Assembly (NCBI RefSeq): GCF_004339575.1
Contig: NZ_SMFV01000001.1
Location: forward strand, 363,119-427,118
DNA: 64,000 nucleotides
Direction of reading: 5' to 3'
Origin: Phorcysia thermohydrogeniphila
GTDB taxonomy: Bacteria > Aquificota > Aquificia > Desulfurobacteriales > Desulfurobacteriaceae
Below, piece by piece: positions 58,087 to 61,951 of this stretch. Numbering within the stretch: the stretch's first letter is position 1; every line of letters starts with the position of its first letter. The notes under the pieces were generated by a model. That model saw only the letters and a program-made list of their open reading frames with translations. It made no database searches and was not told where the DNA came from. The translations under genes and the position numbers were made by a program.

Positions 58087-59185
58087 GAGGATAAAGAAGG
58101 CGATAAGAAACCTCTTTAAACACAACCTCTGCGTTACGAAAGAAGACAAGGTATTAATCCTTTCAGATAGCTACAAGGAGAGGATTGGGGAGCTCTTCTT
58201 CTTCGTAGGAACATCACACACAAGCTCAATCACCCACCTTAGTTACTCCCCTACAGGAAGGCACGGCTTTGAACCACCGGAAGAGGTCTGGAGGGCAACC
58301 TTTGGAAGTGAATTCGTTGAGGAGCTGAAACAGAAAAACCTCCTTGAAAAGGTTCTAAAGAAAGAGATTACCGAGAGCGAAGAGGAAGAGGTAAAAGAAA
58401 TACTCCTTGAAACGACAGAGCCCCCCAACCTTCCAACGGTTATTGTTGCAGTAAACCGCTTCTCAATAAGCCATACCCTCTACAGGAAGCTCTGCACAGG
58501 TTTCCTCTCAATGCGTTTTGCCAGCATGCCCCTCTTTGAGCCCTTTATGTTCTACACCTCAATGCAGGCAAACTGGAACAAGGTGGCAGAAAGGAGTAAG
58601 CTCCTATCAAATCTCCTAACTGAAGCAAGGGAAGTTCACGTAACCTGTCCACTCGGAACAGACATAAGGTTCTCTGTAGAGGGTAGAGAAGGACTTGCCG
58701 ACACCGGAAAGCTCTGCACCCCCTCAAGTTTTGGAAACCTTCCGGCAGGAGAAGCCTTTATCGCCCCCGTAGAAGGCTCTGCAGAGGGAATATTCGTAAC
58801 AAAGTTTGCTCCTGACAGGGAGCTAAAAGAGCCCGTAAGGTTAACAGTTAAAGAGGGAAAGGTAGAAGAAATCTCAGGAGAAGTTGAGTTCTCCGAGTTC
58901 CTACGGGGAATTTTCAGGCTTGAGGAGAACGCCAACAACGTAGCTGAGTTTGGAATCGGAACGAACGAAAAGGCTAAACACTACACCAACATCCTTGAGG
59001 CCGAGAAAATCCTCGGAACGTGCCACATTGCAGTCGGAGACAACAGCGCCTTTGGAGGAAAGGTCAAGGCAAACGTCCACATAGACCTCCTCATTGATAA
59101 ACCGACAATAAAACTTAAGTTGAAGGATAGGGAGATTACTCTCATGGAAGAGGGCAAGTTAACCGTTTTAACGGAGAGTGAATGA
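58061..59185 (+). CDS. M29-like metal aminopeptidase
   Basis: 374 residues from the ATG at 58061. The C-terminal half matches the AmpS/M29 aminopeptidase pattern: EVHVTCPLGTDIRFSVEGR, GNLPAGEAFIAPVEG, NVAEFGIGTNEKAKH, GTCHIAVGDNSAFGG and VHIDLL. The two Glu, two His and the Asp of the dinuclear metal site are therefore present; a Phe replaces the usual Tyr after NSA. The N-terminal half is less typical. Specificity is unknown. The stop overlaps the start of the broken Uma2 gene (ATGA). Confidence 0.75.
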   Translation: MGIWDWQDERIKKAIRNLFKHNLCVTKEDKVLILSDSYKERIGELFFFVGTSHTSSITHLSYSPTGRHGFEPPEEVWRATFGSEFVEELKQKNLLEKVLKKEITESEEEEVKEILLETTEPPNLPTVIVAVNRFSISHTLYRKLCTGFLSMRFASMPLFEPFMFYTSMQANWNKVAERSKLLSNLLTEAREVHVTCPLGTDIRFSVEGREGLADTGKLCTPSSFGNLPAGEAFIAPVEGSAEGIFVTKFAPDRELKEPVRLTVKEGKVEEISGEVEFSEFLRGIFRLEENANNVAEFGIGTNEKAKHYTNILEAEKILGTCHIAVGDNSAFGGKVKANVHIDLLIDKPTIKLKLKDREITLMEEGKLTVLTESE

Positions 59186-59614
59186 ACCTAATAAAAAACA
59201 GCGAACTTCCCCATTACACCTACGAAGACTACAAACACTGGGAAGGAAAGTGGGAGCTGATAGAGGGTATTCCCTATGCCATGTGCCCTCCCCTTCTTGG
59301 AAACATCAGGCAGTTAGTAGTAGAATAGCTTGGCAACTTGAAGAAAGGCTCAAAAACTGTCCCGAGTGTATTTCTCTCATTTCTACTGATTGGAAGATTT
59401 CAGAAGACACGGTAGTTCAACCAGATAACCTTGTCATCTGTAATAGACCCCAAACTCCTTACATTACAAAAGCTCCTTTCTATCTAAGTCAACTGCCTTA
59501 AAAGACAGAAGTGTGAAGTTTAGGCTCTACGAGAGGAAAGGAGTCAAGTACTACGTTCTGGTTGAACCAGAAGACAGAGTAGCAAAGATTATTACTTTAA
59601 GAGAAGGACGTTAA
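59182..59614 (+). pseudogene. Broken Uma2-family (DUF820) nuclease-like gene
   Basis: Three frames give pieces of one Uma2 protein. Frame 1 from the ATG at 59182 gives ELPHYTYEDYKHWEGKWELI and IEGIPYAMC. After the C4 run (59290-59293), frame 3 gives PSWKHQAVSSRIAWQLEERL and ISEDTVVQPDNLVICN, to a stop at 59499-59501. From about 59483 a further frame gives SKSTALKDRSVKFRLYERKG and YYVLVEPEDRVAKI. A one-base loss and a deletion of the strand that normally carries the catalytic E-x-L (VEVLSPST) explain it. It is very probably non-functional. Confidence 0.85.
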
Positions 59615-59642
59615 AATTTCATACCCAAACATAGACATTTAA

Positions 59643-59743
59643 CACCATTATACTTCCTTTACAGCAAGGATTTACAGAGCAAGGTCTCAGAAGTTTAAGA
59701 AAGTCCAGAAACTTTTAGAGGAAGACCTTGAAAGTAGTTAAAA
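59643..59743 (+). pseudogene. IS607-type serine recombinase (TnpA) remnant, C-terminus
   Basis: One frame reads TSFTARIYRARSQKFKK. After an extra A in the A-run at 59700-59703 it continues as VQKLLEEDLESS, then a stop. This resembles the end of IS607 family TnpA resolvases (the TSFxxRLYGxRSxK region). It runs into the start of the tnpB remnant, the usual tnpA-tnpB overlap of IS607 elements. Confidence 0.55.
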
Positions 59744-59904
59744 CGGTTCTCCTGAAAATTTACGAACCCAACAAGGAGAAAAGGGAATCACTTGACAGAA
59801 GGCTTTCCCTGTATGCAGAGGTTTTAAAGTTCTACCTTGAAGTCATAGAGAAAGCTGGAATTTATAGAGTAGCGTCCTTAGACAAAAAACATAAAAAAGA
59901 ATAA
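59729..59904 (+). pseudogene. tnpB: TnpB remnant, N-terminal part
   Basis: A TTG with GAGGAAG upstream (59719-59725) begins LKVVKTVLLK. After one missing T near 59760 the next frame reads YEPNKEKRESLDRRLSLYAE and VLKFYLEVIEKAGIYRVASL, then DKKHKKE and a stop at 59902. This is the N-terminal segment of IS605/IS607-type TnpB proteins. The reading then breaks off at the left edge of the cassette (about 59889-59980). The C-terminal part of a TnpB is found at 61557-61876. Confidence 0.7.
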
Positions 59905-59979
59905 TGGAGCAATTAGAAAACTACCAGTAAGATCGCTAAAAAGAAAGAAGTTTCGATATTTACCAGACCAAAATTCAGC

Positions 59980-60468
59980 CTAATTAAAAATTTTCATTAT
60001 AAAGCCTATAATATTTAGAGGAACATTCTGTGCACTCAACTTACCTTCACTCATCAATGCTACTTCCTCACCATCTCGATTTTTTACTACAAACCTCTTT
60101 AATTTGAAGTTATCCTCTAACAGGGTAACTTCAAATTCACTACCTGTTTTAGGATCAAGAAAAGTTATGCTCCAAACTCCTTGAGAAAAGCTCTCTTTCT
60201 TTTCCTTGATTTGAAAACCATAACCCTTAGCAAGAGCATTTATCGTTTTCAGTAGTATCTCCTTATCTTTTTGACCGCTTTTAACCAAAATTTTCTCAAT
60301 TAAACTTTTATTACTAGGCAAAGGTAAAAGATTATTAAGTAATATAGTTAAAAACAAAGATTTAGTTACACCAGCCAGTTTAGATAGATCAGTCAACATA
60401 GCGTCAGCAACTTTAGGAATGCTAAAAGAAGAAATTTTTGTTTGCGATTCCTTTCCTTGCCTTTTCAT
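59980..60468 (-). CDS. Small protein with RHH-like N-terminus, unknown
   Basis: 162 residues. Residues 10-50 (ISSFSIPKVADAMLTDLSKL, then AGVTKSLFLTILLNNLLP) have the strand-helix-helix spacing of ribbon-helix-helix DNA-binding proteins. The C-terminal half (about 95-160) looks like a beta-rich domain (WSITFLDPKTGSEFEVTLLE, KLKRFVVKNRDGEEVALMSE). No family is recognised. It is divergent from the YaaW-like gene, with 96 bp between, and the shared region contains TAGTTA palindromes. A role as autoregulator is inference. The DNA is AT-rich compared with the core genes. Confidence 0.65.
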   Translation of the reverse strand: MKRQGKESQTKISSFSIPKVADAMLTDLSKLAGVTKSLFLTILLNNLLPLPSNKSLIEKILVKSGQKDKEILLKTINALAKGYGFQIKEKKESFSQGVWSITFLDPKTGSEFEVTLLEDNFKLKRFVVKNRDGEEVALMSEGKLSAQNVPLNIIGFIMKIFN

Positions 60469-60489
60469 ATTATCCTCCTAGTTCCCAAG

Positions 60490-60531
60490 TAGTTAATAAC
60501 TATTGACATGTAGTTACTAAGGTCTTACTAT
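60490..60531 (+). promoter_or_regulatory. Cassette promoter with overlapping TAGTTA palindromes
   Basis: TTGACA (60503-60508), a 17-base spacer and TACTAT (60526-60531) make a near-consensus promoter for the YaaW-like gene. TAGTTAATAACTA (60490-60502) is a perfect palindrome directly touching the -35 box, and TAGTTACTA (60511-60519) lies inside the spacer. Such placement is typical of an operator used for repression. The region also serves the divergent gene. Confidence 0.72.
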
Positions 60532-60564
60532 AAATATAGACTATTCACAGGAGGGGAGGTAAGC

Positions 60565-61365
60565 ATGGCTATCACCTTCGACGAGGCTGTAAGACCTGTT
60601 CTGGAGGCTATGCCTCCAAAGCTAAGGGGAGTAATCTACCTGTATCTTGAATCGTGGGGAAAACCTAAAGAAGAAGTCCTAAAGGACGATGAAAAACTTG
60701 AGAAATTAGGGAAAGAAGCATCCATTGACAAAATGATTAATCGAATGGAAGTGGCGTTCACCGATGGTTTTGGAATCGTTGATTGGATAACAGGAAAAAG
60801 TGGGAACTATGGAGTATGTTTAGATATGCTAACTAAGGACGTCCTTCCCCAAGCTTTTAATGTTTCTAAACCAAAGTTCAAATATTCTGAGGATACCTGG
60901 GAAGGAATACTGGAAAGAGAAGAATGGATAAGGATGAGGTTTATCGAACATTTCTGGAAAGGGTTAAGTGAAGAAGATAAAAAGATGCTAGTAGAGGCTC
61001 TAAAAGACGAGCTAAAAGAAGCCGGAATTAACACAGATAAGGTTCTAAAAGCCATATCTTCAGGTCAAATGAGTTTAACTGTTTTACGTACAATTCTAGG
61101 TTTTAAATTCCATATTTTCATAGCTAAGATAGCAAACTATCTAGCAAAAATTATAATCGGCAGAGGACTTTCTTTCGGAGCTAACGCTCTCCTACAAAAA
61201 ATTGCCGCTTCAATTTTTGGTGGTCCAATAGGATGGGCTCTATTTGCCCTACAGTTAACCTCTATGCTTCTCCCACGCGACTGGGAAACATTAACTCCTG
61301 TCGTAGGATTGATAGCCTTAACCCGTCCCGAATTAGAGAGTCAAAACAATTCCAATCACGAATAG
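60565..61365 (+). CDS. YaaW/UPF0174-like protein with hydrophobic C-terminus
   Basis: 266 residues. GGAGGGGAGG precedes the ATG by about six bases. The N-terminal two thirds are helical and charged (NYGVCLDMLTKDVLPQAFNV; IEHFWKGLSEEDKKMLVEAL). The C-terminal part (about 175-255) has two hydrophobic stretches with LAKIIIGRGLSFGANALLQK, FGGPIGWALFALQL and TPVVGLIALTRPEL. This matches the order seen in E. coli YaaW (helical part, LLGRGLSxxAN, GGPIGWA, TxPxVxxIAxLR; the ubiquinol-cytochrome c chaperone/UPF0174 group). The function of that group is unknown to me. It is probably co-transcribed with the 49-residue peptide. Confidence 0.68.
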   Translation: MAITFDEAVRPVLEAMPPKLRGVIYLYLESWGKPKEEVLKDDEKLEKLGKEASIDKMINRMEVAFTDGFGIVDWITGKSGNYGVCLDMLTKDVLPQAFNVSKPKFKYSEDTWEGILEREEWIRMRFIEHFWKGLSEEDKKMLVEALKDELKEAGINTDKVLKAISSGQMSLTVLRTILGFKFHIFIAKIANYLAKIIIGRGLSFGANALLQKIAASIFGGPIGWALFALQLTSMLLPRDWETLTPVVGLIALTRPELESQNNSNHE

Positions 61366-61380
61366 AAGGAGGTATAGATA

Positions 61381-61530
61381 ATGGATGAGTTTTGTGAAAG
61401 AGAATGTGAGGAAACCTGCGATAACATGGCTGACAGTCTTTGTGAACCTGACGATCCAGGTTGTCAAAATGATATATACGACAACTGTATGGATAACTGT
61501 CTAGATAGCTGCCCCGAAGATGAAAATTAG
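61381..61530 (+). CDS. 49-residue acidic eight-cysteine peptide
   Basis: A clean small ORF with AGAAGGAGG (61365-61373) eight bases before the ATG, 15 bp after the YaaW-like gene and followed by a strong terminator. The cysteines are C5, C9, C13, C21, C28, C36, C40 and C44, giving gaps of 3-3-7-6-7-3-3 residues, which is mirror-symmetric. The N-terminal CxxxCxxxC and C-terminal CxxxCxxxC would each lie along one face of a helix, as in disulfide-linked helical hairpins or metal-binding miniproteins. There are many Asp/Glu and only one Arg, with no signal peptide and no Lys. I know no matching family. Confidence 0.75.
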   Translation: MDEFCERECEETCDNMADSLCEPDDPGCQNDIYDNCMDNCLDSCPEDEN

Positions 61531-61554
61531 AGGGGGATTAATCCCCCTCTTTTT
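61531..61554 (+). terminator. Intrinsic terminator of the cassette operon
   Basis: The palindrome AGGGGGATTAATCCCCCT (61531-61548) starts directly after the peptide's TAG and is followed by CTTTTT (61549-61554). It ends the YaaW-like/Cys-peptide transcript. Confidence 0.88.
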
Positions 61555-61556
61555 AA

Positions 61557-61876
61557 AACCTAAAAGGGTTAAGAGGTAAGAAGGGAGAAAAGAGCAGAAA
61601 GTTGAACAGGAAACTCAATTACTGGTTAAGGAAGAAAACAACCGATAGAGTTAAAGAACTATCTGTAGAAGAGGGATTTAGCGTTGACTTTGTGTATCCA
61701 CGCTGGACATCAAAGAGGTGTAGTCTTTGTGAGTCAAAGGGAGAGAGGTTCTCTTCTAAGGGAAGTCTCAAAAGCAACAGCTACGTTTGTGGATGAATGT
61801 TTACGTTTTAAGGTAGCTGTTGCAACCACGTTACGTAAAACTGTCGGACGTGAGCTCAGAGAAGATGACTTCTGAA
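61557..61876 (+). pseudogene. tnpB: TnpB remnant, C-terminal part with zinc finger
   Basis: In one frame: RKLNRKLNYWLRKKTTDRVK, then FVYPRWTSKRCSLCESKGER, the first CxxC of the TnpB zinc ribbon. This frame stops at 61794-61796 (VCG and stop). A neighbouring frame continues with VDECLRFKVAVATTLRKTVG and RELREDDF to 61875, the second CxxC region and tail. The RuvC-like middle third is missing, and the cassette occupies that place. The gene is dead. Confidence 0.8.
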
Positions 61877-61927
61877 CTTGGAAAGTACAGATTTGAGTTT
61901 GATTTTTCTTTTATATGGATTGATTAA

Positions 61928-61945
61928 GGGCGGGAAGACCCGCCC
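61928..61945 (-). terminator. Hairpin after rplT
   Basis: GGGCGGG, loop AAGA, CCCGCCC form a perfect 7-bp stem lying six bases after the rplT stop on the minus strand. A short T/A-rich run (TTAATC) follows, so it is a likely terminator of the thrS-infC-rpmI-rplT operon. Confidence 0.65.
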
Positions 61946-61951
61946 AACGTT

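Follow-up and report, generated by a model that had tools for sequence, protein, structure and literature searches.

A putative JukA-based accessory cassette replacing the central part of tnpB in a decayed IS607 element of Phorcysia thermohydrogeniphila

In a 64,000-nucleotide stretch of the Phorcysia thermohydrogeniphila genome, hereafter the window, a self-contained regulated unit of three genes has taken the place of the central part of a tnpB gene in a decayed IS607 element, and the evidence supports its being of an accessory or defence kind. Its middle gene is, on sequence comparison, a divergent JukA, the sensor family of the Juk anti-phage system. We consider it fairly probable (about 0.6) that the block is a horizontally acquired JukA-based anti-phage cassette, regulated by an RHH-like protein and with a Cys-rich peptide as its private partner. 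The JukA family membership as judged by sequence, the operon anatomy, the IS607 remnant and the empty sites in sister genera are directly supported. The material is a single copy of the cassette; that the block was horizontally acquired in one piece, that it defends against phage, that the RHH-like protein regulates it and that the peptide has a role in it we infer from homology and anatomy.

Anatomy of the cassette

The block (about 59890-61550) comprises an RHH-like gene on the minus strand followed on the plus strand by a YaaW-like gene, here called jukA, and a gene for a 49-residue Cys-rich peptide. Its G+C content is 37%, as compared with 45% for the window. According to the ORF calls the peptide gene follows the jukA stop codon after a gap of 15 bp; the two form a tight plus-strand operon, and both carry strong Shine-Dalgarno sites, GGAGGGGAGG for jukA and AAGGAGGT for the peptide gene. 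An intrinsic terminator of this operon was located at about 61529-61556 on the plus strand, where the perfect palindrome AGAGGGGGATTAATCCCCCTCT comes directly after the peptide stop codon and forms a 9-bp stem followed by a T run (MFE -17 kcal/mol).

The RHH-like gene and jukA diverge from a region of 96 bp. Positions 60486-60531 (plus strand) are a candidate operator and promoter region for the jukA operon, assigned by consensus match only; the candidate promoter, TTGACA-N17-TACTAT at 60503-60531, is overlapped by a 14-nt direct repeat, CAAGTAGTTAATAA / CATGTAGTTACTAA, with a spacing of 21 bp. The repeat motif GTAGTTANTAA is present twice in the divergent region and is a candidate operator. 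Promoter-like sites in the region were no more numerous than in shuffles, and the identification of TTGACA-N17-TACTAT as the promoter of the operon is suggestive only. Thus the three genes, the positions and the terminator put forward in an earlier note on this DNA were borne out by the ORFs and by the palindrome with its T run, while the promoter is only suggestive.

The homology of the middle gene, the strong Shine-Dalgarno sites and the tight operon argue that these are real genes beyond chance. Since the RHH-like gene and the peptide are without a homologue, the case for them as real genes comes from the anatomy of ORFs, ribosome sites and operon.

The cassette replaces the core of an IS607 tnpB gene

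The sequences on either side of the block were compared with an IS607-type element, L066, which carries a serine-recombinase tnpA and a tnpB, belongs to a different genome within the class, and was the one close match in a TnpB search of relatives. The left remnant (59644-59889, plus strand) consists of the last ~25 codons of tnpA (59652-59726) and the first ~54 codons of tnpB (59728-59889), with tblastx identities of 68% and 59% to L066. By blastn, window positions 59644-59873 align with L066 694-918 at 69%, and tblastx extends this left piece to 59889 (L066 934). The right tnpB remnant (61551-61775, plus strand) covers the first half of the zinc finger, is 67% identical in DNA to L066 1756-1973 and matches Cas12f1-like_TNB at E 3e-4, and positions 61755-61829 align with L066 2139-2215 at 79%.

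The window therefore reads, in order, as the end of tnpA, the start of tnpB, the block, tnpB resuming at L066 position 1756, a deletion of ~165 bp, and a right end with a hairpin. A serine-recombinase tnpA adjoining tnpB in one element, with L066 matched in order, marks the flanks as an IS607 remnant. As the earlier note had read them, the TnpB pieces flank the block and belong to the same IS607 element type, both aligning in order to L066. That the pieces stem from two unrelated IS copies could be ruled out, because a single relative aligns to both in that order.

At the block itself tnpB lacks ~840-880 bp, among them the RuvC core (L066 919-1755 by DNA alignment, or from 935 by tblastx), and the block is therefore a replacement rather than a clean insertion, in agreement with what had been proposed. 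No leftover tnpB above the level of shuffles was detected within the cassette edges. The second deletion, in the right piece, took out the last RuvC motif along with the second half of the zinc finger. L066 represents the source type of the flanking remnants, right-end hairpin included; the window differs from it in having lost most of tnpA together with the two stretches of tnpB.

The hairpin (61774-61829, plus strand; GCAACAGCTAC...GTAGCTGTTGC) is omega-RNA-like, with a fold z of -4.25, and the same stem in L066 has a z of -4.16. It has been kept between the dead IS607 and L066, which are identical over a long stretch on its 3' side. It is probably the IS607 right end or an omega-RNA scaffold; a search of Rfam gave no match at gathering score.

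The locus is an accessory site

The whole added interval, from the M29 peptidase gene to rplT, spans 59186-61951 (2.77 kb) and is absent from three sister-genus genomes (L068, L070 and L072), in which rplT and the M29 gene are convergent and ~30 bp apart. It is at the level of this wider M29-rplT interval that the comparison with empty sites suggested earlier gave a positive result. In another genome (G002) the same site is occupied by a Uma2-like gene (L075 4370-5002). The M29-rplT interval is thus an accessory site, a variable gap. The sole same-genus genome that was compared is 62% complete and has no match to rplT, and therefore does not date the insertion within the genus. By eye, we also noticed a decayed Uma2/DUF820-like gene, of a putative restriction endonuclease family, at 59182-59600, past the M29 gene and ahead of the IS607 remnant.

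The middle gene is related to JukA

The middle gene (60565-61365, plus strand) encodes a JukA/YaaW-family protein of 266 residues, a candidate sensor of phage infection, as indicated by PADLOC, hhalign and its relatives. PADLOC matched it to the JukA profile PDLC04113 at E 9.2e-10 (profile positions 100-242 of 245) and to PDLC04111 at E 1.5e-8, and hhalign gave a probability of 97.9% to DUF3944 JukA proteins of proteobacterial plasmids. Those proteins themselves score 209-241 bits as JukA; the cassette protein scores 36 bits, and its match is confined mainly to its C-terminal 150 residues. The N-terminal DUF3944 domain, which is present in many JukA members and was not taken as defining, had no Pfam match in the cassette protein at E values up to 10; it is also unannotated in two relatives (L211 and L212) and marginal in a third (L210). 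Searches of Pfam and NCBIfam gave nothing useful for this gene. Its structure model was poor and found no fold match, and sequence and fold searches of the PDB yielded nothing reliable. Of the three proteins, then, profile searches placed the YaaW-like one as a JukA-family homologue, and left the peptide and the RHH-like protein with no clear family. This sequence homology is the only strong functional link of the cassette.

Juk consists of the sensor JukA together with diverse effectors, including phospholipases and transcriptional regulators, and in some cases JukA alone protects (PMC13282480). JukA is described as one of the commonest immune proteins among Gram-negative bacteria, and work on the system has centred on Pseudomonas and its nucleus-forming jumbo phages (PMC13282480). 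The function of the unit had been called unknown in the earlier note, which is too pessimistic given the described role of JukA (PMC13282480).

The closest JukA relatives, from other Aquificota, share 42% (L024), 30% (L025) and 26% (L026) identity with the cassette protein. In L025 and L026, jukA is followed by jukB, and in L024 JukA is fused to a DUF445 domain; the peptide and the RHH-like gene occur in none of the three. Relatives are sporadic: a first search found them in 4 of 151 genomes, and the JukA profile was positive in 10 of 391, the genome under study being counted both times. As an observation in its own right, the fusion of JukA to the DUF445 membrane domain (L024 3977-5698, from an Aquificales MAG) could constitute a Juk system in one protein.

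Among further JukA loci, sampled by hand, the neighbours were JukB (Paraburkholderia and Klebsiella), a PDC-M09A-like protein, PDC-M40B, dynamin, HTH regulators and YcjX/TIGR01620, and these varied partners agree with the description of a sensor with diverse effectors (PMC13282480). Near the jukA genes that were sampled, Cys-rich small ORFs were only out-of-frame or chance ORFs. Neither JukB nor any other PADLOC family was matched by the two cassette neighbours of jukA. As JukA can act on its own and the effectors vary, the missing JukB lowers the case for a JukAB system and not that for a JukA-based one. Compared with Juk (jumbo phage killer, JukA with JukB), the cassette shares the central protein family, the accessory placement and the small operon with a variable partner, but it lacks JukB, has a divergent RHH-like gene and the 49-residue peptide, and its JukA is itself divergent.

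The RHH-like gene

The minus-strand gene (59980-60468) encodes an RHH-like protein of 162 residues, a candidate autorepressor. Its assignment is a weak one, made from the sequence pattern and a poor match of residues 8-85 to the CopG-like repressor family phrog_7325 (E 0.07); no RHH profile in Pfam or NCBIfam matched. The AF2 model has a pLDDT of 59, with the first 60 residues below 50, and shows at this low confidence two helices, a long helix and a five-strand sheet, the C-terminal domain being a helix with five strands. Sequence and fold searches of the PDB gave nothing reliable for this protein. It is a candidate autoregulator of the operon, acting through the repeats at the divergent promoter.

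Neither this gene nor the peptide had relatives at usable E-values among ~390 genomes, plasmids and viral contigs (IMG/VR). A few matches at E 0.006-0.1 were dismissed as noise; where their loci were retrieved, no JukA lay nearby. The earlier suggestion of a mobile accessory system therefore stands in part: a regulated accessory or defence-type unit with a JukA homologue is what we observe, while a trio recurring together is not, as two of its members were found nowhere else in these sets and the search of the cassette borders for terminal repeats revealed none that could serve as cassette termini.

The Cys-rich peptide

The peptide gene (61381-61530, plus strand) encodes 49 residues, of which 8 are Cys, 18 acidic and 1 basic. 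The Cys residues lie at positions 5, 9, 13, 21, 28, 36, 40 and 44, with the spacing CX3CX3C ... CX3CX3C, and all mirror pairs sum to 49 (5+44 = 9+40 = 13+36 = 21+28). Such symmetry has a chance of 4.8e-4 under random placement, a figure to be read in the light of its having been noticed after the fact.

Plant alpha-hairpinins carry CX3C pairs in a helix-loop-helix (CX3C-Xn-CX3C), and the CX3C motifs of the peptide at mirror-symmetric positions would permit a helical hairpin with nested disulfides. A hairpin cross-linked in this manner is plausible by analogy. The likeness is a resemblance only, as the peptide has eight Cys and not four, is very acidic, shows no signal peptide and has no sequence homology to alpha-hairpinins. 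The genome gave no clear match to a protein disulfide oxidoreductase (the top hit reached 22.5 bits, the cut-off being 185), and this makes disulfides less likely; alternatively, the Cys residues may form a metal-binding site.

Scanning the viral contigs for the exact Cys spacing returned at least 120 stretches, and no homologue of the peptide was found among the 80 matches listed, which are mostly low-complexity frames with a few long Cys-rich viral proteins. Four of these (L105, L124, L147 and L160) are long proteins with many CX3C repeats.

Proposed working of the cassette

We propose that an acquired Juk-type cassette would have replaced the middle of the now-dead IS607 tnpB in the M29-rplT gap. 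The RHH-like protein would bind the divergent-promoter repeats and keep the operon controlled. JukA would sense an early step of phage infection, by analogy with relatives that do so at the phage entry vesicle, and the co-transcribed peptide would act with it as partner, effector or cofactor, taking the position held by JukB or other effectors in related loci.

This JukA-based defence reading is favoured by the JukA homology, by JukB or a fusion in relatives of the same class and by the varied partners elsewhere, as well as by the sporadic presence, the empty interval in sister genera and the tight operon with its Shine-Dalgarno sites and terminator. It is weakened by the lack of JukB or a known effector in the cassette, by a JukA match that is mainly C-terminal and by the weak RHH assignment. 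The poor JukA model with no fold match, the failure to find a clear disulfide oxidoreductase and the peptide's lack of relatives also count against it. In addition, Juk is known against Pseudomonas jumbo phages, and nothing ties such phages to this host.

A bolder extension, which we hold only tentatively and would sooner bet against, sees in the peptide a JukA partner of a new class: a very small helical hairpin, cross-linked or loaded with metal, that would carry out or license the immune response once JukA has sensed infection. The cassette would then be a minimal Juk system. In the main rival to the preferred reading, which we consider rather improbable, JukA would act alone under RHH control and the peptide would be a metal- or redox-responsive accessory such as a corepressor or a stability factor. 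JukA by itself sometimes protects (PMC13282480), an acidic peptide with eight Cys resembles a metal or redox module more than a membrane-active effector, and its absence from the other JukA loci examined suggests that it is not essential to the family. Against this, the strong Shine-Dalgarno site, the 15-bp spacing and the common terminator bind the peptide to JukA, and in several sampled loci effector genes occupy the position that it holds here.

It is improbable that the YaaW-like gene has a housekeeping or stress role and is a chance neighbour of unrelated genes: a YaaW-family gene is also present in the E. coli control genome, where it long went uncharacterised, but the sporadic distribution, the added interval, the IS remnant setting and the JukA-JukB pairs in the same class speak against such a role. 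Least probable is a toxin-antitoxin or addiction module with one harmful product neutralised by the RHH-like protein or the peptide, a reading raised earlier for which no positive evidence emerged. Small size, autonomy and an RHH-like protein recall type II modules, but the RHH gene is divergent and not in a bicistron, no toxin family matched in Pfam, NCBIfam or PADLOC, and the relatives of JukA are defence sensors and not classical toxins.

If the cassette works as the JukA-based defence reading has it, Juk-type immunity would extend to deep-branching thermophiles, and a candidate effector of fewer than 50 residues, easy to synthesise, would be added. JukA paired with a probable DNA-binding regulator and this unusual Cys-rich mini-protein was not found elsewhere in the searched sets, and the putative defence gene is housed inside the body of a dead TnpB element.

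A comparable arrangement occurs in DUF3944/JukA and HTH cassettes of E. coli phage-plasmids (L084 and L085), in which, as here, a regulator adjoins jukA and the unit lies within mobile-element genes unrelated to it; in L084 a tnpB is likewise close by. Their regulator is, in contrast, an HTH protein encoded upstream on the same strand, whereas that of the cassette is a divergent RHH-like one, and they lack the peptide. In L084 (1089-4477, an Escherichia marmotae plasmid) an intact tnpB, HicA, HTH and jukA stand in a row among phage structural genes. In a Methylomonas plasmid (L083 4611-5084), a small Gly/Ala-rich hydrophobic protein encoded after jukA matches PDC-M09A, a candidate defence family.
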